From NCBI GenBank assembly GCA_001599355.1, contig BCGQ01000002.1, positions 261,554-325,553 of the forward strand: a stretch of DNA of 64,000 bases. The letters run 5' to 3'. Below are positions 1 through 64,000 of the stretch, in pieces. A program made the position numbers and the translations under genes. Source of the stretch: Nakazawaea peltata. Lineage: Eukaryota > Ascomycota > Pichiomycetes > Alaninales > Pachysolenaceae. A model generated the notes under the pieces. It did not search any database. It saw nothing but the letters and a program-made list of their open reading frames with translations, and had not been told where the DNA came from. Position 1 is the first letter of the stretch. Every line of letters begins with the position of its first letter.

Positions 1-2
1 GT

Positions 3-2732
3 GTTGAAAACCCTGAGATTGTCCAAATGTTCGGTGGTAATGCCGAAGGTTTGGAGAGAGAATTGGAGAGAATGGCTAGAAGAAAGTTCAAGTTTGTTGT
101 CTCCATGCAAAGATTGTCCAAATTCTTGCCTGAAGAGTTGGAGAACGCCGAGTTCTTGTTACGTGCTTACCCTGACTTACAAATTGCTTACTTAGACGAA
201 GAACCTCCATTACAAGAAGGTGACGAGCCAAGAGTTTACTCTGCCTTGATCGATGGTCACTGTGAGATCATGGAGAACGGTAGAAGAAAACCAAAGTTCA
301 GAATCCAAATGTCCGGTAACCCAATCTTGGGTGACGGTAAGTCCGATAACCAGAACATGGCCGTCATCTTTACCCGTGGTGAATACTTGCAATTGATCGA
401 TGCTAACCAAGATAACTATTTGGAAGAGTGTCTTAAGATCAGATCTGTCTTGGCTGAATTTGAAGAATTGAACGTTGAACATGTTAACCCTTACGCTCCA
501 GGTTTGAAGAAGGAAACTACTCAAACTCACCCAGTTGCTATCGTCGGTGCCAGAGAATATATCTTCTCTGAGAACACCGGTGTCCTTGGTGATGTTGCTG
601 CCGGTAAGGAACAAACCTTTGGTACTTTGTTCGCCAGAACATTGGCCCAAATTGGTGGTAAGTTACATTATGGTCACCCTGATTTCTTGAACCAGATCTT
701 CATGAACACCCGTGGTGGTGTCTCTAAAGCTCAGAAAGGTTTACATTTGAACGAAGATATCTATGCTGGTATGAACGCTATGTGTCGTGGTGGTAGAATT
801 AAGCACTGTGAATATTATCAATGTGGTAAAGGTAGAGATTTAGGTTTCGGTTCCACCTTGAACTTCACCACCAAGATTGGTGCTGGTATGGGTGAACAAA
901 TGTTATCGAGAGAATACTACTACTTGGGTACCCAATTGCCATTGGACCGTTTCTTGTCTTTCTACTATGCTCACCCTGGTTTCCATATCAACAATATCTT
1001 CATTACCATCTCTGTCCAATTGTTCATGTTGACCTTGGTTAACTTGAACTCTTTGGCTCACGAGGCTATCATCTGTTACTACAATAAGAACCAACCTATC
1101 ACCGATCTTCATATCCCATACGGTTGTTACAACTTGTCTCCAGCCGTGGACTGGATTCGTCACTATACTTTGTCGATTTTCATTGTCTTCTTCATCTCTT
1201 TCATCCCATTGGCTGTCCAAGAATTGATCGAACGTGGTGTCTGGAAGCTGACTCAAAGATTCTTCAAGCATCTTTGTTCATTGTCTCCAATGTTTGAAGT
1301 CTTTGTTGCTCAAATTTACTCCTCGTCTTTGATCGCCGACATGACCGTTGGTGGTGCTCGTTATATCTCCACCGGTAGAGGTTTCGCCACTGCCAGAATT
1401 CCATTCTCCTTGTTGTACTCGAGATTCGCCGAGAGTGCCATTTACATGGGTGCTAAGAGTATGTTGATGTTGTTGTTCGGTACCGTTGCTCATTGGCAGC
1501 CAGCTTTGTTGTGGTTCTGGGCTTCTTTGTCCGCCTTGATGTTCTCTCCATTCATCTTCAACCCTCACCAATTTGCTTGGGAAGATTTCTTTGTCGATTA
1601 CAGAGATTACATCAGATGGTTGTCTCGTGGTAACACTAAATGGCACAAGAACTCTTGGATCGGTTACGTTAGATTGTCTAGATCTAGAATTACCGGTTTC
1701 AAGCGTAAGTTGATTGGTGATGCTTCTGAAAAGGCTGCCGGTGACGCTCCAAGAGCTCATCGTTCCAACATTTTGATCGCCGACACCATCCCATGTTTGA
1801 TCTACACCGCTGGTTGTTACGTTGCTTACACTTATGTCAATGCTCAAACTGGTGTTTCTGACAAGGATGCTCAAATTGTCAACTCGACTTTACGTATTGT
1901 CATTTGTTCTTTACTGCCAGTTGTCATTAACATTGGATGTTTGTTCTTCCTTCTTGCCTTGTCTTGTTGTTCTGGTCCAATTTTCAGTGTCTGCTGTAAG
2001 AAGACCGGTGCTGTTATGGCTGGTATTTCCCACGGTGTCTCTGTAGTTGTCCACATCATCTTCTTCATTGTCTTGTGGGTATTGGAAGGATTCAGTTTCG
2101 TTAGAATGTTGATGGGTTTGGTTACCTCTATCTACATTGAACGTTTACTCTTCAAGATTTTGACCTTGTTGTTCTTGACCAGAGAGTTCAAGAGTGACCA
2201 CGCTAACCAAGCCTTCTGGACCGGTAAATGGTACGGTTCCGGTTTGGGATGGATGGCCTGGACCCAACCAGCTCGTGAGTTTGTCGCTAAGATTATCGAG
2301 GCCTCCGAGTTTGCCGGTGATTTCATCCTTGGTCACGTCATCTTGTTCGTCCAATTCCCAATCCTTTGTATCCCATTGATCGACAGATGGCATTCTATCA
2401 TGTTATTCTGGTTGAAACCTTCCAGACAAATCAGACCTCCTATCTACTCTATCAAACAAGCTAGATTGAGAAAGAGAATGGTTAGAAAGTACATCACTTT
2501 ATACTTCCTGGTTCTTATTCTCTTTGTTATCATCATTGCCGGTCCAGCTGTCGCTGGTTCCGTTGCTGGTATCGACACAGAGTCCATCTCTGAAGAAGTC
2601 AGCAACGCTGCCACTATTGCCGAAGGTTTATTCCAACCTCGTGGACAAGACAATAATGATACTGGTGACAATGCTCCAAAGAGTGTTTTGACCACCACTC
2701 CATCTTTGGCTACTTGGAGTACCAAGGCTTGA
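3..2732 (+). CDS. FKS1: 1,3-beta-glucan synthase catalytic subunit, C-terminal part
   Basis: Membrane enzyme that polymerises UDP-glucose into the 1,3-beta-glucan of the cell wall; the target of echinocandins. The gene enters from the left edge: the frame is open from base 3 and reads [20 protein letters not shown], a hallmark of the FKS/GSC family, so about 909 residues of a protein usually near 1,870 are present. The first third is the large cytoplasmic GT48 catalytic region; the rest holds many membrane segments (about residues 320-440, 470-560, 620-860). Codon use is strongly biased (TTG, GGT, GCT), as expected for a highly expressed gene. In-frame CTG codons are rare; the one at 1248-1250 lies in WK-x-TQRFF, where S. 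cerevisiae Fks1 has alanine. It could equally be a GSC2-type paralogue. Confidence 0.97.
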
Positions 2733-3315
2733 AGCATAAACTAGGCATTCAAAATTAACCATATAGGTTTTGTGGGGGGATTAGTATTATTGGCCTAATA
2801 CTAGTCATCATAAGACTCAATTTTTTATATTACTGTGATATTTCGTATTTTATTACTATATTTCTTTTATTGAATAAATTTATATTGATATTTAGTGATA
2901 GTAGGTTGATGTGTTGGGCTGATTAGATTCATCTAGTGTTCCTTCTCTTTTCTCAGTACTTAAAGCTCATGCTATTCCCATCCTCCCCTCTTCCCCGTCT
3001 TACTATTGTCCACCTACTGTCAAATAGCGTACACTATGAGCTTCCTATGTTGATTTCTCTCACACGGTTTCCCATACGAAGTGTCTATCTTATCTCTGTT
3101 ATCTTCCCTGTCTTCTCTCTTGGTTCACTCTGCTTCTTCCCAGCTTCTCCCGGCCCCTTTGGCTTCCTTGGATTTCTTTATTTCTTGTCTCTCCCATTTG
3201 CGTTTGTGGCTCAAAAAATTGGGGGTGTTTGGGGGGTTAGGAATTTTGGGGGTTCTCAAATTCAATTAATTCCTTCAACCGCCATAACACCACCCTCAAA
3301 ATCATCACCCTCCAA
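2733..3315. other. FKS1-GAS intergenic region
   Basis: 583 bp between two genes on the same strand. The first 200 bp are AT-rich with runs of T and ATTTTTTATATTAC-like sequence, a plausible polyadenylation region for FKS1. The remainder is strongly pyrimidine-rich on the + strand (blocks of CTTCTC, TCTCCC, CCTTGG), which gives a fortuitous 127-codon frame with no family resemblance. I see no further gene. Confidence 0.5.
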
Positions 3316-5034
3316 ATGAACCCAACTCTGTTTCTCATCCACTTCCTCTTCACTTTAATGTGTGTCCACCTGGCTAATGATAAAATAGAAATAAGATCAG
3401 GTGCCTACGATATTATCCCCTCCATTGAAGTCTCGGGCAATAAATTCTTCTACTCAAACAATGGCTCCCAATTCTTCTTAAGAGGTATAGCTTACCAACC
3501 AGACTACGGTCTCTACAGAATGCCCTCGGATTGGAATCACCAATTAAAACCGTATATTGACCCCTTGGCTATTCCTGAGATCTGCAAAAGAGATATCTTC
3601 AATTTGGGTAAATTGAATGTTAACACCGTCAGAGTTTATGCCATTGATCCAAGATCTAACCATGATTATTGTATGAATCTTCTTGCTGAAAACCACATCT
3701 ACGTCATTGCTGATTTGTCCGAACCTAAGACTTCAATTGTGAGAGAACTGCCCTCATGGGACGTTGATCTTTATGAACGATATACCGATGTTATATCGTC
3801 TATGCTGAAATATAAGAATACGCTTGGATTTTTTGCCGGGAATGAAGTGATTACAAACCCAAATAATACACTGGCTGCTCCTTTCATCAGAGCCTCTATC
3901 AGAGATTCTAAAGAGTTTATCAGATCTAGAAATCTCCGTCAAATTCCAATTGGATATTCCACGAGTGACGATGCAAGAATTAGAGACCTGTTAAAAAGTT
4001 ATATTGTATGTGGTAAAGATACAAATTCAATGCTGGATTTCTTTGGAGTCAACAATTACGAATGGTGTGGGCATTCCACTTTCAGAACTTCAGGTTATTC
4101 TGAGAGAGTGGAGGATTTCAGAAACTATCCTGTCCCTATTTTCTTCAGCGAATTCGGTTGTAATACTTTTAGACCAAGACCATTCACCGAAGTCGACTCT
4201 TTGTTCAGTCCGTTGATGACAGATGTGTTCTCAGGTGGGATAATGTACATGTACTTCGAGGAACCAAACAATTATGGTATTGTTCAAGTGGATGACTTCA
4301 ATAATGTCAGTTCTTCAATTACAAATCTTGAAGAATTCAAATTCTTACAATATCAATACAGTAAAGTTAACCCTATAGGAATTAACAAACTGTCGATATC
4401 AAACAATAAAGTTGTCATCGACTGTCCAATTCTGTCGTATAATTGGCAAGCTTCGACTATCCTTCCTAAAACTCCGGACCTGTTTGCTTGTGATTGTATA
4501 ATGAGTTCTCTTGCGTGTGTCCAGTCACCAAAGATGCAATTGACAGCCGAAGATGCGAAGGGAATTTACTCTAAAGCTTGCCATCCAAACTCGCTGATTT
4601 GTGAGAAATTGACTGGCGATGGAAACACAGGTTCGTATGGAATTTATTCAAGTTGTCGTAAGAGTCAAAAATTATCAATTCTGATGAATGAATATTATTA
4701 TAGACAAGGAGCCACCGAGCAAGCTTGTCAATTTGATAACATGGCTAGTTTGGTCAAGACCAAGAATTCTAAAATCCATTTGGCCCAGATCATCGACCCC
4801 CTCAACAAAGGTAGAACTTGTCTTGATGCAATTGGGGGTGATAAAATCGCAAAATCTCTTTATGGCCAATTTGATAACACCACCAATTTCAAAGAACAAC
4901 ATCTCAAATCATTGGATTCTAAGTCTTCTCCGAAGACCCACAAACTCCGAAACTCAAGTTCTACAACTAAACCATTTACTGCTTTTACCATTTCAATAAT
5001 CTTCATTTTCATAATTCTGTTTATGGAATTATAA
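3316..5034 (+). CDS. GPI-anchored 1,3-beta-glucanosyltransferase (GAS/PHR family, with X8 domain)
   Basis: Cell-surface enzyme of GH72 that cuts a 1,3-beta-glucan chain and rejoins it, elongating and branching wall glucan made by FKS1, its upstream neighbour. The 572-residue protein has an N-terminal signal peptide (about residues 1-20), the GH72 domain with both catalytic glutamates visible (E177 in FAGNE, E279 in FFSEFG), then a cysteine-rich X8/CBM43 domain (about 380-500), a Ser/Thr linker and a C-terminal hydrophobic tail that fits GPI attachment. The X8 domain puts it with Gas1/Gas2 rather than Gas3-5. The CTG at 4033-4035 lies in the segment before FFGVNNYEWCG, where Gas1 has Ala-Asp-Phe. 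The catalytic domain is rather divergent, so the exact paralogue is not assigned. Confidence 0.93.
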   Translation: MNPTLFLIHFLFTLMCVHLANDKIEIRSGAYDIIPSIEVSGNKFFYSNNGSQFFLRGIAYQPDYGLYRMPSDWNHQLKPYIDPLAIPEICKRDIFNLGKLNVNTVRVYAIDPRSNHDYCMNLLAENHIYVIADLSEPKTSIVRELPSWDVDLYERYTDVISSMLKYKNTLGFFAGNEVITNPNNTLAAPFIRASIRDSKEFIRSRNLRQIPIGYSTSDDARIRDLLKSYIVCGKDTNSMLDFFGVNNYEWCGHSTFRTSGYSERVEDFRNYPVPIFFSEFGCNTFRPRPFTEVDSLFSPLMTDVFSGGIMYMYFEEPNNYGIVQVDDFNNVSSSITNLEEFKFLQYQYSKVNPIGINKLSISNNKVVIDCPILSYNWQASTILPKTPDLFACDCIMSSLACVQSPKMQLTAEDAKGIYSKACHPNSLICEKLTGDGNTGSYGIYSSCRKSQKLSILMNEYYYRQGATEQACQFDNMASLVKTKNSKIHLAQIIDPLNKGRTCLDAIGGDKIAKSLYGQFDNTTNFKEQHLKSLDSKSSPKTHKLRNSSSTTKPFTAFTISIIFIFIILFMEL

Positions 5035-5136
5035 GTTATATAATTTATTTTTTAGAAAATATAGAATATATAGGATTATTGAATATTTGATTCGATCTTA
5101 TTTACAGAGTATGAACAGGAAGTGACGAGTAAGTGA

Positions 5137-5991: not shown

Positions 5992-5999
5992 CTGATGTG

Positions 6000-6639
6000 A
6001 TTGGAGATTATTTGTTATCCATCAGTTCTTCACTGCTCTTTACCAATTGAAATTGAGTCTAGACTTTTTCGTTCATCGAGCGAAAAGTGGGAGGAAAAGT
6101 AGGGAACAGTAGGGAAATTATAGGGGGAACAGTAGGGAAAACTATAGGGGAAATTGCATGGGAATATAGGGAAAATTATAGGGGAATATATGGAGAAATA
6201 TTGGGGGTTATGGAAATCAGAAAAATATGGAGGGGAATATAGGGGGAGATATTAGGGAAAAGGTATGGTTGAGATGGGGATGGTGAAATTGATAGGCCTG
6301 AGTTTGACAAGAAAGGGAAGGGTTCAAGTGGTTCGGACTACTTATATCACCCCTCTATTCTTCTATTCACTATAGTTAAAAGAAGAATAATCAAGAGAGG
6401 GTCAATTAAGAAGACCAAAACCGTTGAAATCAAATTTTCTGCAGATATGACCTAACCAAAGTAATAAGAAATGATATCTGTACTATAATAATGGTCTATG
6501 GTGTCTCAACCACCCCAAACATCCAATAAATTAACCCCCAACAATCCTTCACCGTATATACAAAAAAATATACATTTAAGTATTGTTTGCCTTATTTGGC
6601 GCAGTGGAAAAGTTGATCGGAATGGGTCTTACTTTTTAA
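6000..6639. other. TIM21 promoter / tRNA upstream region with purine-rich repeats
   Basis: About 640 bp with no gene. Between about 6089 and 6260 the + strand is an almost pure purine tract made of imperfect repeats of AGTAGGGAA, ATAGGGGAA and AATATAGGG. The remainder up to the tRNA is AT-rich with no clear signal. The purine tract lies within 250 bp of the TIM21 start codon, so it may work as a nucleosome-excluding or factor-binding promoter element; that is inference. Confidence 0.5.
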
Positions 6640-6713
6640 GCCCTTGTAGCGTAATTGGTTAGCGCGTTGCTCTCCGGAGGCAAAGATTGTGGGTTCGAGT
6701 CCCACCTCGGGCT
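6640..6713 (+). tRNA. tRNA-Arg (anticodon CCG)
   Basis: A full cloverleaf can be folded: D stem GCGT/GCGC (6649-6652, 6662-6665), anticodon stem TTGCT/GGCAA with loop CTCCGGA (6672-6678), anticodon CCG at 6674-6676, T stem GTGGG/CCCAC with loop TTCGAGT, and a perfect internal B box GGTTCGAGTCC. No intron. A run of eight T residues (6713-6720) follows at once as a Pol III terminator. The acceptor stem GCCCTTG/CTCGGGC pairs at positions 1-4 and 7 but has two mismatches, U5-C68 and U6-U67, which is unusual. Decodes the CGG arginine codon. Confidence 0.85.
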
Positions 6714-6720
6714 TTTTTTT
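6713..6720 (+). terminator. Pol III terminator of tRNA-Arg
   Basis: Eight consecutive T residues directly after the acceptor stem, the normal RNA polymerase III stop signal. Confidence 0.85.
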
Positions 6721-7218: not shown

Positions 7219-7964
7219 ATGGCCAAAATTAGTCAAGGTAAATATCATTTTGCAAGGAAGGGTCAATATTGAGACGGAGAGAGAATGTAGATCAGTGTTC
7301 AACAAGGGATGTGCGTCAAATGAAGGTTTCGTCGACAGTTGAAGAGGGAGAAAGCGAGAGGTGAAAAAAATGAAGAGAAATGGGAGAAATCAAGAGAAAT
7401 GAATACGAGGCTTTGTATCAGCGATGAAACAAGTTGAATATTTGAATCCAGAGAGTTTTTGAACGATTGTATGGTACTTCCATCAAAGCTCTACCGAAGA
7501 TAATAATACCCTTAATGCACTGAAAGACTCATATTCATTATCCCCATCAAGATATTAGACCCGATTTACCCAAGAATTATAATACTAACAATTTATTAGA
7601 CGTTTCCTCTTCCAGAAGCAAAGCTAGAAAGGCTTACTTCAACGCTCCATCTTCCGAGAGACGTGTTATCATGTCCGCTCCATTGTCCAAGGAGTTGAGA
7701 GCCCAATACAAGATCAGATCTTTGCCAATCAGAAAGGATGACGAGGTCTTGGTCACCAGAGGTTCCAAGAAGGGTTCCGAAGGTAAGGTTTCTTCTGTCT
7801 ACAGATTGAAGTACGCTATCCAAGTTGAGAAGTTGACCAAGGAGAAGTCCAACGGTGCTTCTATCCCAATCAACATCAGCACTTCCAAGGTTGTCATCAC
7901 CAAGTTGCACTTGGACAAGGACAGAAAGGCTTTGATCGAGAGAAAGGGTGGTGTTGTTGCTTAA
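7219..7964 (+). CDS. RPL26: 60S ribosomal protein L26 (uL24), two exons
   Basis: Ribosomal protein uL24, near the exit of the peptide tunnel of the large subunit. Exon 1 is 7219-7237 (M-A-K-I-S-Q plus one base) and exon 2 is 7600-7964; joining them gives 127 residues, the same length as yeast Rpl26, with [19 protein letters not shown] at the junction and [16 protein letters not shown] (KOW motif) inside. S. cerevisiae RPL26 genes carry an intron at nearly the same place. The exon 2 frame alone would start at an internal Met (7671) and lose 25 residues. No CTG codon is used, in keeping with strong codon bias. Confidence 0.96.
7238..7599 (+). other. RPL26 intron
   Basis: 362 bp intron. The 5' splice site is GTAAAT, the branch site is a perfect TACTAAC at 7583-7589, and the 3' splice site TTATTAG ends at 7599, only 10 bases after the branch heptamer. 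Removing it restores the RPL26 frame exactly. I could not recognise a snoRNA in it. Confidence 0.93.
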
Positions 7965-8054
7965 ATTTCTTTTAGGATTTGAAAAGTACATACATTGAAT
8001 TCTGGAGAAGTATAATATAATAAAATATCAAGTGATAAAAATTAAATGAATGTA

Positions 8055-11593: not shown

Positions 11594-14197
11594 TTAGATA
11601 GACAACTGAGCCTTTTGTTGCTCTCTTGCCCATCTAGCCGTCTCCTTAGTCTGTTGAGTAAAGTTAGGATTGGCTCTGGTCTTCTTAATGAAACTAGCAA
11701 CCCATTCTTGAGCAAACCCACTCTTAAATTCACCCTTAGGATACATAGAGGCAAGATCACCAATCAATCCAATTGCCGATCTAACAACAGAATCATCAGA
11801 CGTGAGAGATATTTCCTCATTAGACTCAGCAAGGAACGAGATAATTTGTGGCACATACGATTGTACAACATCTGGGTATTCATGTAATCCAGCAACGATA
11901 CCAACATACAGATCTAAAACTGCCTCTCTGAGACTGATCATATAGTCCATAGTATCGACAGAAGCATCGTTCAATTTCAAGATTTGCAGCTGTTGACAAA
12001 TCTCCATCACCGCACTCAAGTAAGGTTGGAAATTAGACCCAATCGACGACGCAATGTCACCGAAACATGACAAGATGCAAGGTCTTAAATCTCTTCTAAT
12101 ATCAGGTTTAGAAATGATACCACCCAAGATTTGCATCAAGTCTTGTAAATAAGGTATCAAATTGTCACCTAACGAATGAGAAATATCGGCAACTAATCCA
12201 ATCGACGTATTACAAGTTGGGGAATCGATGTTTTGTAACAGATTCTTCAAGTATGGTAAGAATGCGTCCATGTATACCAAGAAGTTTTGATTCAATGCGT
12301 CGGCAACGGCTCCAATAGCAATGAAGATATCCTCTTCGATTAGAGAGTTTGGTTCTTGCAGGTTTAATAATCTTAAGAACATTTCCATCAAGTTGTCTGA
12401 TACAGACAGGACGTCGGCACCAGCTCTTCTGATCACATTAGTCAATAATGCTAAAATATTAGTTTGTAATTCCATCAAATTGGCCTTATCTTCATGAGTA
12501 TTGATCTGTGATTGCATATTGATACTGGCATCTAATCTTGTTAATACTTCACTCAGTACTCCATTAACCACAGGCATGACATCTGCCGAACTATAGAACA
12601 CCATTGTTGATAACAGTTCATAAGCCGAGGTTCTGGCAGAATATTCGTTATCGGATCTTCCACTAATTTGGACTAACACCGGTGTGATAATCGGATAATA
12701 TTGAGACATTGGAGTGGTCTGTAATTCAGATCCATTGGCTGCTAATTGTTCGATCAAATTCATAAGAGTCCAACAACAATTAGTCGAAACCTTTGGATGA
12801 TCTTGTAAACCAACTAAAATAGCCTGAACTACCAGTGGTAAATGATCATTAATATCGATGGCATCAATGACCAAGTCGGCAATTCTACCAAGACACCATG
12901 CCACGGTCTCTTTAACTTGTAAATAATCATCTTTGATCAAATTCAAAATAGGTGATAACAGTTGTCCAATTAATACTTTCAATTGTTCTCTTTCTGGACC
13001 ATCTAAAATAGAACCAAAGGCCATGACAGCAGCTTCACGATCTCTCCAATTGGATGATGGTAATTTCTGCTCGACGAATTGTAAAGTAGGTTGTACTACA
13101 TAATTTTGAGTATTTTGAGCGAAAAGTGTCAAACAAGCACCAGCTGCCATTGCTACAGTCCATGAGTCATCTTCTGGATCCTCATTTTGTCTTGCTAACA
13201 AGGTCAACAAAGTAGGTAAGACATCTTGAATAGCAACAAGAGCAAAATTATACAAAACCAGCTCTGCATCGCCATATTCTTCTCTTTGTAAAACGATTTC
13301 CAATTCTTCTTCACAAACAGTCGACCAAAATTCAACAGCCATACATGCTACTTTTTCATCTTCACTTTGCATTCCACTTACAGTTAAACTGTAAAGAGCC
13401 TTCTCCATATAAACACTCATGTAACTGTAGTATAAACTCATAATCTTGGAAAGAGCACCAAATGCACTGGCTTGTAACTCAGCATCGTCCAGTTGAGTCA
13501 GTTCACATACAACTTGCATGATATAATTTCTTTCACCTTCTCTAGAAAAGTTGAATCTGATGAACTCTAAAGAGTTAACCAAAGCATTAAGAGCCGTGAG
13601 TCTGACTTTGATAGAAGGCTCGGTAGAAAGAGCACCTTGGACAATCAGAATCAAAATACCATCAGCTTGACTAACTACACCTGGATTAGTAGGATCAGCA
13701 GTCTCACAAATATAACCAATCGCCAATAAAGAAGCACGTTTGACATGTACAGGTTGTTCAGTCTTGGTGTTCTCCACGATAATTGGGATCAACTCAGGCC
13801 AATCTGTGTTTGGTAATTCGATATCAGCAATGACAGCTACTAACTGAGCAGCCGAATTAGCAACACGCTCATCTGTAGAGATCAAAGTACGTAAAGAATT
13901 CTCCTTGATACTCTTCCTAAGTTGTTCATCCAACATATACCAACGTGATTGTTGCTCTTGTTTCTTCTTGACATCTTTAGAAGTCAATTGATTCTTTAAT
14001 TGAAGACCAGCCAACATTCTGACTTCGGTACGTTCAGACTCACTACTCATTGCATTGTTCAACAGTTGTAAGTAAGAATCGAAATGGTTAACGGCGGCAT
14101 TCTCCAATTGAGCCTCAGCCTCGGATCTTTTCACCGGGTCTGGGTTAAGCAATGCCGCCTCCAAGATCTTTCCGAAATCCATAGTGTTGTCACTCAT
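11594..14197 (-). CDS. KAP95: importin beta-1 (karyopherin beta)
   Basis: Nuclear import receptor: binds the importin-alpha/NLS-cargo complex, carries it through FG nucleoporins and releases it on Ran-GTP. The 867-residue protein (861 in S. cerevisiae Kap95) is built of HEAT repeats throughout, with an importin-beta N-terminal domain (about residues 20-100, LNPDPVKRSEAEAQLE at the start) and the conserved VACMAVEFWSTVCEEE block around residue 280. Two CTG codons in the CE-x-TQ-x-DDAELQASAFG segment (13499-13501 and 13490-13492) fall where Kap95 has alanine. The start at 14197 is the natural one. Confidence 0.97.
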   Translation of the reverse strand: MSDNTMDFGKILEAALLNPDPVKRSEAEAQLENAAVNHFDSYLQLLNNAMSSESERTEVRMLAGLQLKNQLTSKDVKKKQEQQSRWYMLDEQLRKSIKENSLRTLISTDERVANSAAQLVAVIADIELPNTDWPELIPIIVENTKTEQPVHVKRASLLAIGYICETADPTNPGVVSQADGILILIVQGALSTEPSIKVRLTALNALVNSLEFIRFNFSREGERNYIMQVVCELTQLDDAELQASAFGALSKIMSLYYSYMSVYMEKALYSLTVSGMQSEDEKVACMAVEFWSTVCEEELEIVLQREEYGDAELVLYNFALVAIQDVLPTLLTLLARQNEDPEDDSWTVAMAAGACLTLFAQNTQNYVVQPTLQFVEQKLPSSNWRDREAAVMAFGSILDGPEREQLKVLIGQLLSPILNLIKDDYLQVKETVAWCLGRIADLVIDAIDINDHLPLVVQAILVGLQDHPKVSTNCCWTLMNLIEQLAANGSELQTTPMSQYYPIITPVLVQISGRSDNEYSARTSAYELLSTMVFYSSADVMPVVNGVLSEVLTRLDASINMQSQINTHEDKANLMELQTNILALLTNVIRRAGADVLSVSDNLMEMFLRLLNLQEPNSLIEEDIFIAIGAVADALNQNFLVYMDAFLPYLKNLLQNIDSPTCNTSIGLVADISHSLGDNLIPYLQDLMQILGGIISKPDIRRDLRPCILSCFGDIASSIGSNFQPYLSAVMEICQQLQILKLNDASVDTMDYMISLREAVLDLYVGIVAGLHEYPDVVQSYVPQIISFLAESNEEISLTSDDSVVRSAIGLIGDLASMYPKGEFKSGFAQEWVASFIKKTRANPNFTQQTKETARWAREQQKAQLSI

Positions 14198-15180: not shown

Positions 15181-16059
15181 ATGTCTGATTCTCCTGACTC
15201 TTTGTTAGTCGATAATGTAAAGTCGTTTGTTTCTGGAGGTGTTGGTGGGTTAGCTGCGGTCATAACCGGGCACCCCTTCGATTTGGTCAAAGTTCGTCTT
15301 CAGACCAATCAGTATAAAAGTTCTATAGACTGTATTAAGAAAACAGTGGCTCAAGATGGTCTTTTAGGGTTTTATCGTGGTGTGTTGCCTCCTATCATTG
15401 GTGTGACCCCTATTTTCCTGGTGAGTTTTTGGGGTTACGATGTCGGTAAGAAATTAGTCGCTCTGACTGGTCATAAGAAGCCTGAGGATTTCAGTATTCT
15501 GGAGATTAGTGCCGCCGGTTTCCTCAGCGCTATCCCAACAACTCTGATAACAGCACCATTTGAGCGTGTGAAAGTGGTCATGCAGATTCAAGATCACACC
15601 CAAAGGAAATCAATGCTTCAAGTTGTATCTCAAATTTATAAAGAAGGAGGACTCAAATCTGTCTTTAAAGGTTCTGCGGCCACTTTAGCAAGAGATGGTC
15701 CAGGTAGTGCTTTGTATTTCGCAACTTATGAATATGTTAAGAATGCTCTTACCCCTCCACAGGCCCCTGGTGACACTGGACCTCCTCAACTTTCGTTAAC
15801 TGCTATCACCATCGCTGGTGGTCTTGCTGGTGTACTGATGTGGACCGGTATTTTCCCTGTTGACACCATCAAATCCGTTCAACAATCTTCGTCGTCCAAA
15901 ATCTCAATTTCTCAAGTGATTAAACAAATTTACTCCAAGAATGGTATTAAAGGATTCTTCCCTGGTATCGGACCGGCTTTAGCTAGAAGTTTCCCTCTGA
16001 ATGCTGCCACCTTCTTAGGGGTCGAATTGGCTCGTGAGCTGTTGAATGCTGTAGTATAA
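15181..16059 (+). CDS. CRC1: mitochondrial carnitine/acylcarnitine carrier
   Basis: Inner-membrane carrier that swaps acylcarnitine for carnitine, bringing acetyl or acyl units made in peroxisomes or cytosol into mitochondria. The 292-residue protein has three repeats of about 95 residues, each with a carrier signature: GHPFDLVKVR, APFERVKVVM, FPVDTIKSVQ. TPIF-x-VSFWGYDVGKK and ARDGPGSALYFATYEY are diagnostic of Crc1. Reading CTG as Ala gives exact matches to recalled Crc1 residues at 15418-15420 (TPIF-A-VSFWG) and 15997-15999 (SFP-A-NAATFLG); at 15835-15837 it gives AGV-A-MW, a common carrier motif. The ATG at 15181 is preferred over an upstream one at 15097. Confidence 0.95.
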   Translation: MSDSPDSLLVDNVKSFVSGGVGGLAAVITGHPFDLVKVRLQTNQYKSSIDCIKKTVAQDGLLGFYRGVLPPIIGVTPIFLVSFWGYDVGKKLVALTGHKKPEDFSILEISAAGFLSAIPTTLITAPFERVKVVMQIQDHTQRKSMLQVVSQIYKEGGLKSVFKGSAATLARDGPGSALYFATYEYVKNALTPPQAPGDTGPPQLSLTAITIAGGLAGVLMWTGIFPVDTIKSVQQSSSSKISISQVIKQIYSKNGIKGFFPGIGPALARSFPLNAATFLGVELARELLNAVV

Positions 16060-21703: not shown

Positions 21704-21722
21704 AAATGTATTATCTATACAA

Positions 21723-22456: not shown

Positions 22457-23410
22457 TTATTTCTTTCTAGTTGATCTTCTTCTGGAAGTTGAAGGGGTGG
22501 CCAGTTGGGTAGTTGATGGTGCTGGGGTTGCCGATTGAGCTGGAGAATCGGTGTGTTGAGTGGACTTTCTCAAATTGTGTCTTGTGGCCGGTTTCGATGG
22601 GGTCTGTTCAGGCAGACTTTGAGCTGTTGAAGATTGCAGTGGAGGAGCAGTTGCCGGAGGAACAGGTCCATGAGAACGAGTAGATCTTCTAGTGGATGGA
22701 GTGGCTGTAGCTGGAGTAGCAGTAGCGTGAGATTTTGCAGCTTTTGATGCTGGTGTTTGCGTCAGCTTCAGCAGAGCAAATGAACGAGTACGTTTTCTAG
22801 TATTTCTTGAAGTTGAAGAAGCAGATGCTTCAGAATTATCCGAGACAGCTCCATCGCTCTCGCCATCTTTACCTTCACTGTGTGCTGGTTTGATAGGAGT
22901 TGATGTGGACTTCTTTCTTGAAGATTTCCTTGTCCTCAGCAGCAGCAGCAGCAGTGACTTTGGCTCATCAGTTCCTGTAGAAGTTGTAGATTTCAGATCA
23001 TCCAGATCTGGTGATTGTCTACGTGTACTGGATCTTGTTAAAACAGTACGTTTCGATTCACTCTTGGTCTCATCTTCATCGTCATCTTCATCTTCACTTC
23101 CACTTCCACTTCCCACAGAATCTTCATCACTCTCATCAACATGTGACTTCTTCTTGGTCTTTTCATCTTCTTTCTCTTCATTATTCTCCGAGTCTTCAGA
23201 TTCATTACTTAATGCTTCCAAATCATCCAAATTGTATAATGACTCCAATTTCTCTAGCACATCTTTCTTAGTAACAGACGCCGTCGTAACAGTAGCGTTG
23301 ATATTCTTCACAATACTAGTCAAGTTGGTGGACTTATTTTCACCTAAAGGCTTGGATGTTGCCACAGATTTCAAGAATATGATTTCTTCTTCGTGACTCC
23401 AACTACGCAT
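22457..23410 (-). CDS. EAF7: NuA4 histone acetyltransferase subunit Eaf7-like
   Basis: Subunit of the NuA4/TINTIN module (with Eaf3 and Eaf5) that acetylates H4. 317 residues from the ATG at 23410. The N-terminal Eaf7/MRGBP domain (residues 1-75) shows WSHEEEIIFLKSVATSKPLG and LEKLESLYNLDDLEALSNE, matching the family pattern. The rest is disordered: an acidic stretch (about 75-125) and then a Ser/Thr/Ala/Arg-rich basic tail with TRKR and RRSTRKK. Six consecutive CTG codons (22937-22954) sit in this tail; as alanines they fit its Ala-rich character, as leucines they would not. A further CTG cluster in the SFA-xx-K-x-TQTPASKAAK segment behaves the same way. Divergent from NAM9. Confidence 0.82.
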   Translation of the reverse strand: MRSWSHEEEIIFLKSVATSKPLGENKSTNLTSIVKNINATVTTASVTKKDVLEKLESLYNLDDLEALSNESEDSENNEEKEDEKTKKKSHVDESDEDSVGSGSGSEDEDDDEDETKSESKRTVLTRSSTRRQSPDLDDLKSTTSTGTDEPKSLLLLLLRTRKSSRKKSTSTPIKPAHSEGKDGESDGAVSDNSEASASSTSRNTRKRTRSFALLKLTQTPASKAAKSHATATPATATPSTRRSTRSHGPVPPATAPPLQSSTAQSLPEQTPSKPATRHNLRKSTQHTDSPAQSATPAPSTTQLATPSTSRRRSTRKK

Positions 23411-48456: not shown

Positions 48457-49863
48457 TCAGGCACCTTTGTCCTCAGTATCGGCCAGCTTTTTCTTGAGCC
48501 ATTCTTCGTAGTCTCTTTTACGTTTTCCCCTCCTTGTATTAGACCGATGTCTTGCTCCAGCCAAGTGCAGCAGCCATTGCCTATCAAGAACAACTAATGG
48601 CTTGTCATCGGAGTCTCTACAGATTTCACAAATACGATGTTCATTCTGTGCATCTTTGGAATCTTTGGAAGTTGAAGTCACCATCAGTTCCAATGAAGGA
48701 GGAGTAGCAGGAAGGTCAAGGAATGCGTCGATATCTTGTACGAAGATTTGAGTAATTTGTGAGCCTCTCTCGTTCACTTTCTCTTGCCATTGAGTCAAAT
48801 CTGTAGCGTCTAATAAGAAAACCTTAGCCATATCAGCTCCAGGTAAAAGTGATGATGAGGGGAGAGATGGACAGAGTGTGTTCTTGATCCATTTTACTTG
48901 ACGTTTGCTGTATTTCCTCGTCTTCAGCTTCATATCTTCAATGCATGAGTTCAAAAGTTTTGGATCATCGGAATCCGACTTCTGTAACCAAGGAAGAAAC
49001 TCTTTAAATCCAATAACTTGCCATACTCCACGCTCACAATCAGGCAATGGAGTCTGGGCAGTATAGTGCAGGTATAATTCTTTTATCTCGCCCATACCTC
49101 CCGAAGACATCATGTTATCGACTCTATCATCCAATCTCTTGCTCAACAGTTCTTGTTCACTCCAGAGCCATAAAAACAATGTTTTAAACCTCAAACTCCC
49201 TTCTTCGTTAACTTTCTTCTGCTCATCGTAGATCTGAGACAGTTGTTTACCCGTCTTGAAGTAAATCTCAAGTGACCTCTTGATTCTCCGATGATCATTG
49301 GGGTGGAATTTATTGGCCATGACTGGGTCTATCTTTTTCAATTCATGTATCAATTGGTCTGGTGGACCTTCTAAAATCAGTCTCTGCAGATCTGTCAAAT
49401 CCTTGATTATATCATCTAATTTCTTCAGTTCTTCACTTTCCTTGTTGGTCACCACCATTTTATTGTTGAATAATACCGATTGGAGGTAGTAATGGGTACC
49501 TCCCACTAAGATGGGGATCTTATTACGAGAATGAATGTCCTCGATGACCAGTAACAGTTCAGCTTTGAACCTATGCATATCGTATTCATCATCCCAACCA
49601 ACATGATTTATCACATGATGTGGTATACCATACCTCTCCTTCATGGGATGCTTATTAGTAATGATATCGACACCTCTGTACATCTGCATGGAATCAGCGT
49701 TAATGATCTCTCCATTGAACTTTAACAGAAGTTCAACTCCAAGTTGGGACTTCCCCACTCCTGTTGTACCAATGATTGATATTATAGGTTTCTTAGGAGG
49801 AATATCATTCATATTTGTCATTTGTCGATATACTTTCCTCACTATACTTTTCCAATAGACCAT
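48457..49863 (-). CDS. MOD5: tRNA dimethylallyltransferase
   Basis: Transfers the isopentenyl group from dimethylallyl diphosphate to A37 of tRNAs (i6A37). 468 residues. P-loop GTTGVGKS (residues 32-39), NADSMQMYRG, NKHP, GGTHYYLQ, and a C-terminal matrin/C2H2-type zinc finger (RICEICRDSD ... HLAGARHRSN) followed by a basic nuclear-type tail (RRGKRKR). Met1 begins a basic leader (MVYWKSIVRKVYRQ) followed by Met15 (49821) and Met18 (49812), the same arrangement by which S. cerevisiae MOD5 makes mitochondrial and cytosolic/nuclear forms from alternate starts. Divergent from AYR1. Confidence 0.95.
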   Translation of the reverse strand: MVYWKSIVRKVYRQMTNMNDIPPKKPIISIIGTTGVGKSQLGVELLLKFNGEIINADSMQMYRGVDIITNKHPMKERYGIPHHVINHVGWDDEYDMHRFKAELLLVIEDIHSRNKIPILVGGTHYYLQSVLFNNKMVVTNKESEELKKLDDIIKDLTDLQRLILEGPPDQLIHELKKIDPVMANKFHPNDHRRIKRSLEIYFKTGKQLSQIYDEQKKVNEEGSLRFKTLFLWLWSEQELLSKRLDDRVDNMMSSGGMGEIKELYLHYTAQTPLPDCERGVWQVIGFKEFLPWLQKSDSDDPKLLNSCIEDMKLKTRKYSKRQVKWIKNTLCPSLPSSSLLPGADMAKVFLLDATDLTQWQEKVNERGSQITQIFVQDIDAFLDLPATPPSLELMVTSTSKDSKDAQNEHRICEICRDSDDKPLVVLDRQWLLHLAGARHRSNTRRGKRKRDYEEWLKKKLADTEDKGA

Positions 49864-50226: not shown

Positions 50227-51096
50227 ATGAGTAGTGAACAAACAAAGTACGCGTTAGTTACAGGAGCCTCTTCTGGAATTGGCAAAGCAACCGCCAAGGA
50301 ATTGGCCTCGAGAGGTTTCAAGGTGTTTGCTGTTGCCCGTAGATTGGAGCTGATGGATGACCTTAAAGAGCTTGGGATTTTGACTATGAAGTTGGACGTT
50401 ACGAGTCTTGAGGATGTGAAGAAGGTCAAGGAAGAGATTTCTGAAATCACTGGTGGGAAATTGGATATTTTATTCAATAATGCAGGTACTTCATGTACTC
50501 TCCCTGCTTTGGATGTGACTGATGAGCAAGCTAAACTGTGCTTTGAAGTCAATGTTTTCGCCCCAGTCAGATTGACTAGAGAATTTGGTGAGATGTTGAT
50601 CAAAGCTAAAGGATGTGTCGCATTCACTGGATCTCTTGCTGGTGTAACCACTTTCCCATGGGGGTCTATTTATGGAGCCACCAAACTGGCTCTTCACTCC
50701 TATGTCAGAGTCTTACACCTTGAAATGAGACCATTTGGTGTTAAGGTGTTGAATATTATCACTGGTGGAGTCCGTACCGATATTGCCGATACCCGTCCTC
50801 TTCCAACTGACTCTGTTTACTACTCCGAGGCAACTCTTGAATCTTTCAGACGTAGACAAGGACTTGCCAAAGAAAACCATCCAATGGAGCCAGATGTTTA
50901 TGCTAAACAAGTCGTCGATGATATGTTAGCTTTGTCTGATCCATGTGATGTATGGAGAGGAGCTAGAACTTGGATAGGTTGGATTATGAGCCATATGCCA
51001 AGACCACTTCTCGAAAGGATTTTGATCTGGAAGTTTTTCTTGACTGATGTGTTTGCTGATCTTGAACTGAAGTATAGTAAGACACATATTGAGTGA
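50227..51096 (+). CDS. AYR1: NADPH-dependent 1-acyldihydroxyacetone phosphate reductase
   Basis: Short-chain dehydrogenase of lipid droplets and ER that reduces 1-acyl-DHAP to lysophosphatidic acid. 289 residues from the ATG at 50227 (the frame upstream begins with TTG). Cofactor motif TGASSGIGKA (about residues 12-21), NNAG, active-site Ser in FTGSLAGV and the YGATK catalytic pair; a C-terminal hydrophobic segment for membrane association. FTGSLAGV-TFPWGSIYGATK and ITGGV-TDIAD-RPLP match Ayr1 closely. The CTG at 50686-50688 directly follows the catalytic Lys, where Ayr1 has alanine. Confidence 0.94.
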   Translation: MSSEQTKYALVTGASSGIGKATAKELASRGFKVFAVARRLELMDDLKELGILTMKLDVTSLEDVKKVKEEISEITGGKLDILFNNAGTSCTLPALDVTDEQAKLCFEVNVFAPVRLTREFGEMLIKAKGCVAFTGSLAGVTTFPWGSIYGATKLALHSYVRVLHLEMRPFGVKVLNIITGGVRTDIADTRPLPTDSVYYSEATLESFRRRQGLAKENHPMEPDVYAKQVVDDMLALSDPCDVWRGARTWIGWIMSHMPRPLLERILIWKFFLTDVFADLELKYSKTHIE

Positions 51097-51457: not shown

Positions 51458-53989
51458 ATGGAGGGCTCAAATATCATGTACATACCGTTCAGGCGGACAG
51501 ATCCATCGATCGACTTACTGAATTCCCTCAAAGAAATCATCACCCAGGAATTTTATCAAAGCGCGTCACTGTTTGAACACGAACTCTCAGATTTAGCCGC
51601 GCTTAGAGGAACAGTGGCGAGATCAATTGAAGGTGATACCAAACCAAATGACGATACCGCCTTCGTCCAGTACTATTACCAGATCAGTTGTGTGAAGCGG
51701 AAGTTCCCCTCTGACTGTGTAGAGTTTAGTTGGTCAAGTAACCCCTTAACATACAAACCAGATCATCACGTCCTGTTGAAGTCGTTTGATTTTGAGAGGA
51801 TGAACGTTTTGTATAATCTTGCGGCATTGTATTCTCGGCTTGGATTTGATCAGGACCGGTCAGATTTAGAAGGATTGAAGAAGACGTCTCAATATTTCCA
51901 GAATTCGGCTGGGGTTCTCGAGCTTCTTGTTGAGGTGATTGGTTCTGTGCAAGATTTCCAGATCCCATTGGAGTATTCGATCCAAGCAATTGAAGGGTTG
52001 AAATACTTGATGTTGGCTCAACTGCAGGAGGCCTTCTGGCAAAGAGCTTTAGCTAGTAGTGGGGACAAGATTGTCTCCATTTTGGCCCAACAAGTGGGTG
52101 ATTATTATAGACAGTCGTATGAATCATTTAATAAGTCGCAATTTATTATGAGAAGTGAGTTTCTTAATCATATCAATTGCAAATCGCATCATTTCATGGC
52201 CGCTGCTAGTTATCGGATGGCTCAGGTTGAGCATTCTCAGTCTCGTTATGGTGAGCAGGTGGCATACTTGAAAGAGGCTGATAAGCTTTGTGGACTTGGA
52301 TTGAAATCACTCAGAGGTGTAACCGATCTGGTGGTGGATGATATTAGGGGGTTAAATCAGACAGTAAAGGATGTACTTAAGACTGCTGAGAAGGAGAATA
52401 ACTTGATTTTCAATAAGGTGGTCCCTAATTCTCCTCCTCCTATTGCTGGAAGACCAATGGTGAAGCCAATTTTGGTGAGCTCACTTGAATTTGAGACTCC
52501 AATTCAGGCTCTCAAAAGCATGGGAATCAAACCATTGTTCCTGAATTTATTGCCTTATATTGTTATCCAAAGTGCTCAAGCTTTCAAAGAAAGGCAAGAG
52601 GAGTTTGTCTCCTCCAATCTTATAAAGCCAGTCAATACGTTATCAAAGATGTTTAGAGACTTCATTAGCGAGAGGAATTTACCTCTGTCATTAGACTCGA
52701 TCACCAAACCACAGAGATTACCTGAAAGTTTACTTCAACATTGTCATGATTTGCATTCTAATGATGCTATCTCTAGATTGCTAAGGCAGATGGATGAGTT
52801 GGCTCGCTTAGGTCAACTGAGTGAGAATGTATTATTGGATTGTAGACAGAGATTGGCCATCGAGGAAAGAGAAGAGGAGGAGTTCAAGATGAGACAAGGA
52901 TTACTGAGATGGAATAGAATGTCATCTGAGGAGGCTTCGAAGGAGTTAGTAAGGAAAATCAATCATTATGAAGGTTTTCTTCACCAAGCAGCCGAGGGTG
53001 ATGAGACTATTAGGAATAATGTAGAAGAGATCACACCATATTTGGAGATTATGATTAAACTGGCGACTCCTGGATCTTTTGGGAAAGACGAACTCAAGAA
53101 ATTTGTCCCAATGTCAAATCTTATAGATCTTTCACCCGATCTCAGTAAGGTTATTAAACAGCTTAAAGATGCATTGAGTGAACTGTCAAGGGAGTTGAAT
53201 AAAAGACAAGGATTTCTTGAGGCTGTTGAATTAAAGGCTCGAGAATCGGCTATTTTGCCTAAAATTATATCTGAATATCGTCTTCTTCAATCTCAGGGTG
53301 ACGTGGTTTTGTCCGAGTCCTCGTTTGAGCCTGTATTCACCAGACATTTGAAAAACTTTGACAATGATTTAAGTAATTTGTATCAGATTCGTGATATGCA
53401 GACCTCATTAGAAGGAAGAATCGATACTTTAAACAAAAGGTTTGAGTCCTTGTCGTCTGATACTTCTAGCGTGACTCTGGCTCGTACTGAGGCTCTTCAA
53501 ACACTCGAAGATGCATACAATGGTTATAAAGAGAACATGAACAACATTGCTGAAGGGCAGCAATTCTATCTTGGATTCATTGAGAATGTTCAGAACTTAC
53601 TTCATGAGTGTGATGAGTTTGTATATCAAAGAAGATCTGAGGGACAAGATTTAGAGGCCAAATTGGATTTACTTTACAAGGCACCACCAGCTACTTTTGA
53701 AACTCCATCGAAAAGAATTGCTGATGCTATAGAGCCACCTCCTTCTTTACGGAGATCGACTCTTTCCTTCAATCAGGAGGATGACGATGATGAAAATGAG
53801 ACTTTTTACAGTGATGCAAACATATCATTTGATGATGGAAGTCGTAGTCCGGTAAAGGTTCAAAGAGTCAATGATGGAGGTCGGTTTGCTACTAGAATGG
53901 AAGAGAATTCAATTAGACAACATAAGGTCCGTGATACTACATCAAGAGAGGGGCTTTGGGATCCAAAACATGGAATTGAGTTTGAATAA
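51458..53989 (+). CDS. RIM20: pH-response regulator Rim20/PalA
   Basis: Bro1-domain scaffold that binds the ESCRT-III protein Snf7 and the transcription factor Rim101, bringing Rim101 to its protease Rim13 in alkaline response. 843 residues. Bro1 domain (about 1-370): YIPFRRTDPSIDL start, EFSWSS, LYNLAALYSRLG, the LMLAQ-x-QEAFWQRA block and KSHHFMAAASYRMA, closer to Rim20 than to Bro1. A V-shaped coiled-coil domain follows (about 380-720) and a short acidic tail. The CTG at 52022-52024 falls in LMLAQ-x-QE, where Rim20 has alanine. BRO1 itself is the alternative. Confidence 0.88.
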   Translation: MEGSNIMYIPFRRTDPSIDLLNSLKEIITQEFYQSASLFEHELSDLAALRGTVARSIEGDTKPNDDTAFVQYYYQISCVKRKFPSDCVEFSWSSNPLTYKPDHHVLLKSFDFERMNVLYNLAALYSRLGFDQDRSDLEGLKKTSQYFQNSAGVLELLVEVIGSVQDFQIPLEYSIQAIEGLKYLMLAQLQEAFWQRALASSGDKIVSILAQQVGDYYRQSYESFNKSQFIMRSEFLNHINCKSHHFMAAASYRMAQVEHSQSRYGEQVAYLKEADKLCGLGLKSLRGVTDLVVDDIRGLNQTVKDVLKTAEKENNLIFNKVVPNSPPPIAGRPMVKPILVSSLEFETPIQALKSMGIKPLFLNLLPYIVIQSAQAFKERQEEFVSSNLIKPVNTLSKMFRDFISERNLPLSLDSITKPQRLPESLLQHCHDLHSNDAISRLLRQMDELARLGQLSENVLLDCRQRLAIEEREEEEFKMRQGLLRWNRMSSEEASKELVRKINHYEGFLHQAAEGDETIRNNVEEITPYLEIMIKLATPGSFGKDELKKFVPMSNLIDLSPDLSKVIKQLKDALSELSRELNKRQGFLEAVELKARESAILPKIISEYRLLQSQGDVVLSESSFEPVFTRHLKNFDNDLSNLYQIRDMQTSLEGRIDTLNKRFESLSSDTSSVTLARTEALQTLEDAYNGYKENMNNIAEGQQFYLGFIENVQNLLHECDEFVYQRRSEGQDLEAKLDLLYKAPPATFETPSKRIADAIEPPPSLRRSTLSFNQEDDDDENETFYSDANISFDDGSRSPVKVQRVNDGGRFATRMEENSIRQHKVRDTTSREGLWDPKHGIEFE

Positions 53990-54017: not shown

Positions 54018-55982
<1,965 letters not shown>

Positions 55983-60105: not shown

Positions 60106-60645
60106 ATGCCTGTCATCAAAAGTTTGGGTAAGATCCAAAAGGCGACTGCCAACAAAAACATCCACCCAAAAGGTAGAAAATTCAAGCAGCTTAATAAAGC
60201 CACTTTGAGAGAGAAACATATCCTGAAAAAGAAGCTGGATCATATCGAGAAGAAGTCCAATGAGTTGCTGATTGTCAAGTTTTTACAAGATATTCTGACC
60301 TCAGAGACATTTGCTGAGCAAGAGAAGTTCTCATTGCAAGAATTGAAGGATTTCCTGCAACTGTTTATCGACAGAGACGATGAAGAAATCGAAGAGTTGA
60401 AGGCTCAAAGAAAGCCAGGAAGACCAACTCCTAATAGACAAATCTTATTGGAGAGTCGTAAGAAACAAGAGTCTCACATATTTGAAACCGGATGGTATTT
60501 ACCTAATCTTATGGATCCTAAGAATGTTAAGAATTTAAGACTGTGGAATGGTACATTTGGGGGTAATAATAATATTGCTAAGGTTTTGGTCAAGAGGAGT
60601 GATTCTGAAGATAAGTTTCTGGTAGATCTGGATATGCTGCTGTAG
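60106..60645 (+). CDS. TMA16: translation machinery-associated protein 16
   Basis: Nuclear factor associated with pre-60S ribosomes. 179 residues (178 in yeast). MPVIKSLGKIQKA, VHPKGRK-like IHPKGRKFKQL, FIDRDDEEIEELKAQRKPGRP and NRQILLESRKKQE, and LRLWNGTFGG near the C terminus, all match Tma16. Two blocks test the code: the CTG at 60268-60270 lies in NEL-x-IVKFLQD, where Tma16 has alanine, and DF-x-Q-x-FIDRDD carries two CTGs at tolerant positions. Confidence 0.94.
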   Translation: MPVIKSLGKIQKATANKNIHPKGRKFKQLNKATLREKHILKKKLDHIEKKSNELLIVKFLQDILTSETFAEQEKFSLQELKDFLQLFIDRDDEEIEELKAQRKPGRPTPNRQILLESRKKQESHIFETGWYLPNLMDPKNVKNLRLWNGTFGGNNNIAKVLVKRSDSEDKFLVDLDMLL

Positions 60646-61060
60646 ATTGTATAATAGGATAATGCATATAACTTAAAATGGTTTGATAGTGTGATAGTAG
60701 ATTATTTCATAAGCTTCATAAATATTATATATAATAGTTTAATTAGGTAGAGGAAGTATATTAAATATATAGTTCATGGAGGGATAAATCTCTAACGGTC
60801 ACCGAGTCCATAGGAGTTCTAACCACAAACTAACACTACTAGTAACCTCAATCAAGTCCAAGTTACCCTGAATAACCTGAATTACCTGAATTACCTACAC
60901 TAAAGTTTAAAGTTAGGGATACTTAGTCGTGCACACCCAAAAGCCCAATTAGGAAATCTTACGTAAGCACTACAATCACCCCCAATTTATAGAGTTCACT
61001 TTAGAAAGTTCACTTTATTATCAATAACATACTCAAATAGAGAACTAAACCAGCTAATTC
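60646..61060. other. TMA16 3' flank
   Basis: 415 bp between convergent genes, AT-rich with ATATATAATAG sequence at 60725-60770. A repeat of ATTACCTGA occurs at 60870-60895 and AGTCGTGCAC at 60925-60934. No gene seen. Confidence 0.45.
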
Positions 61061-62857: not shown

Positions 62858-63128
62858 TGTCAATTCTTTGCTGGATCTCGTATTTGCCACACCTTCCTCA
62901 GATGATTTAACAGCTCGATCTTTATTAATCGTCGCTTAGTGAGAAAATATCTATTTACCGTAAATGGAAATTGGGAGTGCACGACAAAATTTAATCAGGT
63001 ACAGCATTAGATTGCCGTATTTGGACAGATTTGGACGAGGCGCACGACTTACGAGGAGGATACTAAATTGGGGGTAATTTATATTAAACCATTTATAAAA
63101 AGCATGAAAACAAAGTATTGAAGAACAA
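62858..63128. other. promoter of the mitochondrial protein gene
   Basis: 271 bp. GTGCACGAC (62977-62985) and GCGCACGAC (63040-63048) are two inverse copies of the recurrent motif, 63 bp apart. AT-rich permease 3' end from 63070. Confidence 0.5.
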
Positions 63129-64000
63129 TTAGCTAGATTCAGATTGAGCATCGTGAACTGTTGGACTTACGGTCTTGTCCAAAGATTTTCTTTGAGTGAC
63201 ATGACCTTTGGTGTGATATTCCAGTTCAGCAATGGCTTCAACAGCCTCTTTGTAGTCCTCATCGACAGTGACAACTGGTCCTGTGTAATGCTTACGAGCA
63301 GAGAGTAACCACCAGCCACCTGCAAGGAAGAAGACGAATCCTAAAATGACAACAGTGTAGTTCATATCTTCTGGGGTGACAGGGATATAGTTAGGGAAGA
63401 CAAATACGATGGAGACAATGATAGTCCATAAGCAAGCGTAACCCATGACGAATTTGGAGAATCTTCCCATGGTGAATGGACCCTTCTTAACACCCATTTT
63501 CTCGGCATTGAAAAGGTATAATCCAATGACAATGATATAAGACCAGTCGGTAGCGATAGCACAGGCCGAGAAGATGGCATTCATAGCAATGGTAGAACCC
63601 AAGTTGATCAAAGAAATGATAGAGTTGATAGTAGCCAACAACCAGATGGCTCTCAATGGGTTGTTGGTGGTCTTGTTGATGACATTCAAGTTCTTGGAGT
63701 AAGGGAAGAAGTTGTCTCTAGCCAATGACCACATAGATCTAGAAGTGTAACACATGGCAACGGCACCACAGAACCAAATAATGACAAAGGTCAAGGATAA
63801 ATAAGCAGTGGCAGCAGTCTTACCCAAGACATCGTAGAACAATTGGACAATTGGTTGACCAGTTGGAGTGTTCAATAATTTCTCAATATCGTCACCCATG
63901 ACAATAGCAAAGACAACACACAAGATCCAACCCAAGACGGCAGTGGTGGTCAAAGCAGATGCAATAGCCAAAGGAACTTGTCTAGCAGCACCCTTGGATT
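63129..64000 (-). CDS. amino-acid/GABA/choline permease, C-terminal part
   Basis: APC-superfamily permease of the ACT group (UGA4, HNM1, BIO5, TPO5 relatives), plasma membrane or vacuole. The frame is open to the window end, so the N terminus is missing; about 290 residues are present. The visible part starts SKGAARQVPLAIASALTTTAVLGW and contains about seven membrane segments; FCGAVAMCYTSRSMWSLARDN is a family hallmark, and a cytoplasmic C-terminal tail with KSLDKTVSPTVHDAQSESS follows. The closest relative cannot be decided from the tail alone. Confidence 0.85.
   Translation of the reverse strand, partial: SKGAARQVPLAIASALTTTAVLGWILCVVFAIVMGDDIEKLLNTPTGQPIVQLFYDVLGKTAATAYLSLTFVIIWFCGAVAMCYTSRSMWSLARDNFFPYSKNLNVINKTTNNPLRAIWLLATINSIISLINLGSTIAMNAIFSACAIATDWSYIIVIGLYLFNAEKMGVKKGPFTMGRFSKFVMGYACLWTIIVSIVFVFPNYIPVTPEDMNYTVVILGFVFFLAGGWWLLSARKHYTGPVVTVDEDYKEAVEAIAELEYHTKGHVTQRKSLDKTVSPTVHDAQSESS

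Follow-up and report, generated by a model that had tools for sequence, protein, structure and literature searches.

How a budding yeast translates the CUG codon is the question raised by the window analyzed here, i.e., the whole 64,000-nucleotide stretch C2:261554-325553 from an 11.63 Mb genome comprising 11 contigs. CTG accounts for 239 of the 15,085 codons (15.8 per thousand) in the 29 main open reading frames (ORFs) of the window. The initial annotation had proposed that CUG is read as alanine, naming 14 CTG sites on presumed alanine positions, and that the window comes from the Pachysolen clade. We found that the alanine reading is borne out by close homologs, by Pfam comparison with the leucine reading, by a tRNA with the CAG anticodon, tRNA(CAG), that carries alanine identity elements, and by the tree of the importin beta KAP95; it is also backed by the fact that no leucine- or serine-type tRNA(CAG) turned up in pattern searches. 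Judged from the sequence, the genome is almost certainly that of a CUG-Ala-clade budding yeast, in which nuclear CUG would be read by one tRNA(CAG), the ancestral tRNA-Leu(CAG) has apparently been lost, and the other tested codons keep their standard meaning.

CUG Codons in Close Homologs

Our codon test asks which residue is favored by the alignment columns of each codon type. It was run on three genes of the window, with CTG masked as X: KAP95 (11594–14197, minus strand), a QDR-type transporter of the major facilitator superfamily (38083–39864, minus strand) and the tRNA isopentenyltransferase gene MOD5 (48457–49863, minus strand), which hold 14, 22 and 14 CTG codons, respectively. The best 120 homologs of each gene were listed from at most about 8000 scored candidates; the two closest of each 120 (Pachysolen tannophilus and one further relative) were omitted because they possibly share the code, and the other 118 were aligned. 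In total, 44 of the 50 CTG columns were used, the remaining six being dropped for an occupancy below 0.7.

Across these 44 columns alanine scored +46.4 bits, serine -7.4, threonine -25.0 and leucine -48.0, which places alanine 54 bits over serine and 94 over leucine, and alanine was returned in 5000 of 5000 column bootstraps. Among the 59 codon types scored (CGA and CGC had no usable columns), 58 came out best as their standard residue, CTG being the sole exception; since the other 58 give the standard residue, the test can be regarded as working. Columns with at least 50% alanine make up 14/44 for CTG, 54/118 for the alanine codons GCN, 9/133 for serine codons and 0/187 for the other leucine codons. 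Taken alone, KAP95 gives alanine 25.4 bits (next serine, -5.2) and the transporter 17.2 bits (next serine, 5.4).

The tabulation of residues at CTG positions, which the initial annotation had suggested as a check, favors alanine and neither leucine nor serine in these three genes. In KAP95, alanine is present among the 118 homologs in 118 at codon 413, in 114 at codon 233, in 112 at codon 184, in 111 at codon 528, in 110 at codon 737 and in 107 each at codons 548 and 653. Codon 535 of the transporter is matched by alanine in 107 of the 116 homologs with a residue there, and codon 46 of MOD5 in 104 of 106. At some of these alanine columns (KAP95 528; transporter 535) the database translations of relatives carry leucine, as is expected if the relatives use the alanine code too and the standard table was applied to their sequences.

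The tRNA(CAG) and Other tRNA Genes

The initial annotation had proposed a search for a tRNA-Ala-type gene with a CAG anticodon, and one gene with this anticodon, bearing alanine identity elements, was found on contig C4 (L030:1469-1541). It is 73 nucleotides long, scores 50.9 bits against the Rfam tRNA model and is the sole match to its own sequence in the genome. The encoded tRNA has a short variable arm, the acceptor pairs G1-C72, G2-C71 and G3:U70, the discriminator A73 and an anticodon loop TTCAGGT with G37. ARAGORN labels it 'tRNA-Leu', a name derived from the anticodon. G3:U70 together with A73 forms the classical alanine identity set, and alanyl-tRNA synthetase does not read the anticodon. 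Because both elements are present and the enzyme ignores the anticodon, alanyl-tRNA synthetase would be expected to charge this tRNA. CUG codons of nuclear mRNAs would then be decoded by this single tRNA, the ancestral tRNA-Leu(CAG) appears to have been lost, and the remaining tested codons retain their standard meaning. The alignments, the tRNA gene and the tree were observed directly; from them we infer charging with alanine and its insertion into protein.

The first CAG pattern matched the genome 43 times (52 times for the reversed control), 31 matches being fetched and 12 judged on the printed string, and a second pattern gave no further tRNA with a CAG anticodon, as judged by the printed strings. 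Only the short-armed tRNA(CAG) was detected in the pattern searches, which revealed no serine-type tRNA(CAG) with a long variable arm. Leucine-type genes among the matches listed comprise five with CAA, two with UAA, one each with AAG and UAG, and none with CAG. One of the five CAA genes, at locus L091, was called 'tRNA-Val(CAC)' by ARAGORN, while we read it as an intron-bearing tRNA-Leu(CAA). A pattern for the Ser/Leu A box gave eight matches, of which the six identified from fetched loci were serine genes and the tRNA-Leu(UAG) already found; two were left unfetched. This tRNA-Leu(UAG), the only one found, lies at L031 (contig C4, near position 804,530) and has a predicted 120-nucleotide intron and G37. 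CTA is a rare codon in the window (17/15,085). The tRNA-Ala genes found number six (four AGC and two UGC), all on contig C9; no tRNA-Ala(CGC) was seen in the same search.

Phylogenetic Position and Relation to Known Codes

The assignment of the window to the Pachysolen clade agrees with the KAP95 tree of 33 rows, in which the window groups with a relative at 100/100 and this pair then joins P. tannophilus at 99/100; the tree represents one gene, and named sequences of Nakazawaea or Peterozyma are absent from its rows. KAP95 is 73%, MOD5 52% and the transporter 50% identical to the P. tannophilus counterpart; therefore, we are dealing with a different species.

A CUG-Ala code is already known and published (NCBI table 26; PMC5951914). 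In the sections of PMC5951914 that concern these codes, the codes of 18 species were determined by mass spectrometry, and three sense-codon reassignments are described in nuclear genes, all of them of CUG and in budding yeasts. The same sections confirm that CUG means alanine in Pachysolen and relatives, as the initial annotation had stated: the Ala clade consists of Pachysolen, Nakazawaea and Peterozyma, has a tRNA-Ala(CAG) and has lost tRNA-Leu(CAG). As far as that account goes, the genome studied here resembles the clade in having CTG on alanine positions, a tRNA(CAG) with alanine identity, a place beside Pachysolen and no tRNA-Leu(CAG) found in pattern searches. It differs from P. tannophilus as a species, and the body of its tRNA(CAG) looks like a weak valine/alanine mosaic. 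With the CUG-Ser codes (Ser1 and Ser2), as outlined in PMC5951914, it shares the reassignment of the same codon through a novel tRNA(CAG), and with most Ser1 species described there G37 in that tRNA. Yet, the residue is alanine instead of serine, and the variable arm is short. All 58 other scored codon types agree with the standard code of Saccharomyces cerevisiae, while CTG is best read as alanine. According to PMC5951914, S. cerevisiae likewise has no tRNA-Leu(CAG), but there CUG is read by tRNA-Leu(UAG).

Named Sites and Solved Homologs

All 14 sites named in the initial annotation are CTG codons in the proposed frame, and the alanine assigned to them was recovered in part. In the best solved homolog nine of the 14 align with alanine, namely codon 416 of FKS1, 233 and 236 of KAP95, 513 of NOP2, 25, 236 and 239 of YDJ1 (codon 25 being the J-domain site), 189 of RIM20 (in human ALIX) and 55 of TMA16; codon 240 of the GAS-type protein aligns with isoleucine and not with alanine. 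This comparison covers ten of the 14 sites, as the three in CRC1 have only distant ADP/ATP carriers as matches in the PDB and the one in AYR1 is covered by Pfam scores only.

The named sites are a hand-picked selection, 14 of 239 CTG codons; thus, for seven proteins every CTG codon covered by the alignment with the best solved chain was counted by hand. The 56 codons fall on alanine in 22 cases, on leucine and serine in four each and on other residues in 26. The query carried leucine at CTG in six of the seven proteins and X in KAP95. RIM20 (a BRO1-domain protein, 51458–53989, plus strand, 12 CTG) and the CRC1-type mitochondrial carrier (15181–16059, plus strand, seven CTG) were kept out of the count because their matches are distant. 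Gene names derive partly from PDB and Pfam rows and are partly those of the initial annotation.

By protein, the three CTG codons of FKS1 (1,3-beta-glucan synthase, 3–2732, plus strand, with its 5' end beyond the window) align with alanine, alanine and leucine. Eight of the 14 in KAP95 and all four of the DnaJ-type YDJ1 (36112–37341, plus strand) fall on alanine. The six of NOP2 (25S rRNA methyltransferase, 28407–30278, plus strand) match leucine, serine, alanine, glutamate, alanine and alanine in the S. cerevisiae chain. In TMA16 (60106–60645, plus strand) seven of 11 CTG codons align with the S. cerevisiae chain (alanine 2, serine 1, leucine 0), and in the GAS-type glucanosyltransferase (3316–5034, plus strand) ten of 13 align (alanine 2, serine 1, leucine 0), which leaves four TMA16 and three GAS codons outside the alignments. 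The remaining 12 counted codons belong to ARP5 (30731–32992, minus strand), where the sites are mostly variable and neither leucine nor serine occurs.

Pfam Comparison of Three Codes

Pfam scoring under tables 26, 1 and 12 covered 20 of the 29 ORFs and 189 of the 239 CTG codons. Over 32 families, the totals are 5769.1 bits for alanine, 5739.7 for serine and 5650.1 for leucine. Compared with leucine, alanine is higher in 28 families, lower in two (HEAT_EZ and IBN_N) and equal in two, with a total gap of 119.0 bits. For the AYR1-type short-chain dehydrogenase (50227–51096, plus strand, four CTG), adh_short gives alanine 156.1, serine 153.9 and leucine 151.0 bits. Omitted from the sum, as overlapping or present under one code only, were HEAT, HEAT_2, Arm, Htt_N-HEAT_1, RsmF-B_ferredox, Sugar_tr, adh_short_C2, KR, ADH_zinc_N, NAD_binding_10, Myb_DNA-bind_6 and EFR3_ARM, and CAP_N was left out as it has no row under the leucine reading. 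Such broad profiles reject leucine and barely separate alanine from serine; therefore, the decision between these two falls to the close homologs and the tRNA.

Alternative Readings of CUG

Several observations weigh against the alanine reading. In the solved homologs, 26 of the 56 hand-counted sites are neither alanine, leucine nor serine, and ARP5 has alanine at just one of its 12. By Pfam family, alanine leads serine 17 to 13 with two ties, a gap of just 29.4 bits. MOD5 alone gives alanine 3.8 bits and the next residue, glutamate, 0.7, a margin of only 3 bits, so that this gene alone would not decide. Columns with at least 50% leucine make up 3/44 for CTG and 1/118 for GCN. Beyond its acceptor stem, the tRNA(CAG) does not clearly resemble a tRNA-Ala. 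Finally, tRNA-Leu(CAG) was not found in pattern searches that are non-exhaustive, being limited to the matches listed.

The alternative that survives best, which we nonetheless regard as unlikely, is that CUG is mainly alanine with a measurable share of leucine, inserted through wobble of tRNA-Leu(UAG) or by a leucylated tRNA(CAG). The tRNA-Leu(UAG) gene at L031 and G37 in the tRNA(CAG) are in keeping with it, and in the relevant part of PMC5951914 G37 is linked to about 3% mischarging of the Candida albicans tRNA-Ser(CAG). Leucine also has a share of 0.084 in CTG columns vs. 0.038 in GCN columns (p 0.02, uncorrected, 13 residues tested). Yet, CTG columns are likewise richer than GCN columns in isoleucine (0.067 vs. 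0.022) and glutamate (0.052 vs. 0.019), hence they may simply be less constrained; the alanine share itself is 0.358 vs. 0.482 (p 0.057, uncorrected, 13 residues tested). Moreover, CTG is one mutation away from leucine codons, which explains some leucine columns without mixed decoding, and leucyl-tRNA synthetase normally charges tRNAs with a long variable arm. The plainer reading of the column excess is that CTG, arising easily from leucine codons, occupies less constrained sites; the portion of PMC5951914 on CTG usage notes the same tendency toward non-essential sites.

The serine reading known from Candida and its relatives (CUG-Ser1 or Ser2, table 12) draws on the narrow Pfam gap and on a lead of serine in 13 of the 32 families. 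We consider this reading very improbable and reject it, given the -7.4 bits for serine vs. +46.4 for alanine with close homologs, a tRNA(CAG) that has G3:U70 and, unlike the serine tRNAs of the genome, a short variable arm, and the clustering of KAP95 with Pachysolen and not with Candida. The standard code, under which CUG would be leucine and the matching sites cherry-picked, is more improbable still: it can point to the three leucine-rich columns of 44 and the four leucines among 56 hand-counted sites, but it is rejected by the -48.0 bits of leucine at CTG while leucine is the top-scoring residue for each of CTT, CTC, CTA, TTA and TTG in the same test, by the 14/44 alanine-rich CTG columns vs. 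0/187 for those other leucine codons, and by the pattern searches, in which a leucine-type tRNA(CAG) was not found.

Origin of the tRNA(CAG)

For the Ala clade, PMC5951914 describes, in the part dealing with its tRNA, an origin of tRNA(CAG) by anticodon change of a tRNA-Ala. Among the tRNAs fetched, the tRNA(CAG) identified here agrees with tRNA-Val(UAC) at 48 positions outside the anticodon loop and with tRNA-Ala(AGC) at 45. The 5' part with the anticodon stem is closer to tRNA-Val(UAC) (28/36, vs. 20/35 for tRNA-Ala(AGC)), and the 3' part to tRNA-Ala(AGC) (25/30 vs. 20/30); i.e., the D arm and anticodon stem are valine-like, while the variable and T arms are alanine-like. Discordant sites stand at 11:4 and 3:8 (hand count; Fisher p 0.045), figures that come from one gene with paired sites dependent on each other. 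The CAC anticodon of tRNA-Val is one change from CAG, and no tRNA-Val(CAC) was recognized among 38 pattern matches, 30 of them examined; not one of these 30 was classed as a tRNA. Based on these letters, the CUG-capturing tRNA might be a mosaic, or a remodelled Val(UAC)-like tRNA that gained G3:U70, which with its G37 would perhaps sometimes be leucylated and make CUG slightly mixed. This scenario appears to us a little less probable even than mixed decoding as such.

CUG Usage and Other Features of the Window

Under the alanine reading, 22% of the alanine codons of the window are CUG (242/1099, 30 ORFs). The CTG share of alanine codons varies by gene, from 0.03 in AAP, 0.04 in FKS1 and 0.09 in SUN to 0.50 in MOD5 and 0.65 in TMA16, and may follow expression level. 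A low-complexity ORF with abundant Ser, Thr and charged amino acids (22457–23410, minus strand) has six consecutive CTG codons (codons 153–158), a run that gives six alanines under table 26 and polyleucine under table 1. The frame of SRV2 (33408–35027, plus strand) extends 5' of the ATG at 34017 without a stop codon and has no ATG at its start; a short first exon followed by an intron likely lies upstream, and our CTG tally for SRV2 is too low. The ORF at 7671–7964 (plus strand), with no CTG and six GCN codons, we take, by our own reading without a family search, to resemble exon 2 of the gene for ribosomal protein L26. A tRNA-Arg(CCG) gene (6639–6714, plus strand) is the sole tRNA in the window.

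Implications

Translation by table 1 would place a wrong residue at 239 positions in 29 ORFs of this window alone; therefore, annotation of the genome must use table 26. As another Ala-clade genome, in which CUG contributes 22% of the alanine codons of the window and one gene was found for the tRNA that would read it, it should be useful for understanding how the code changed and whether the change is fully fixed.

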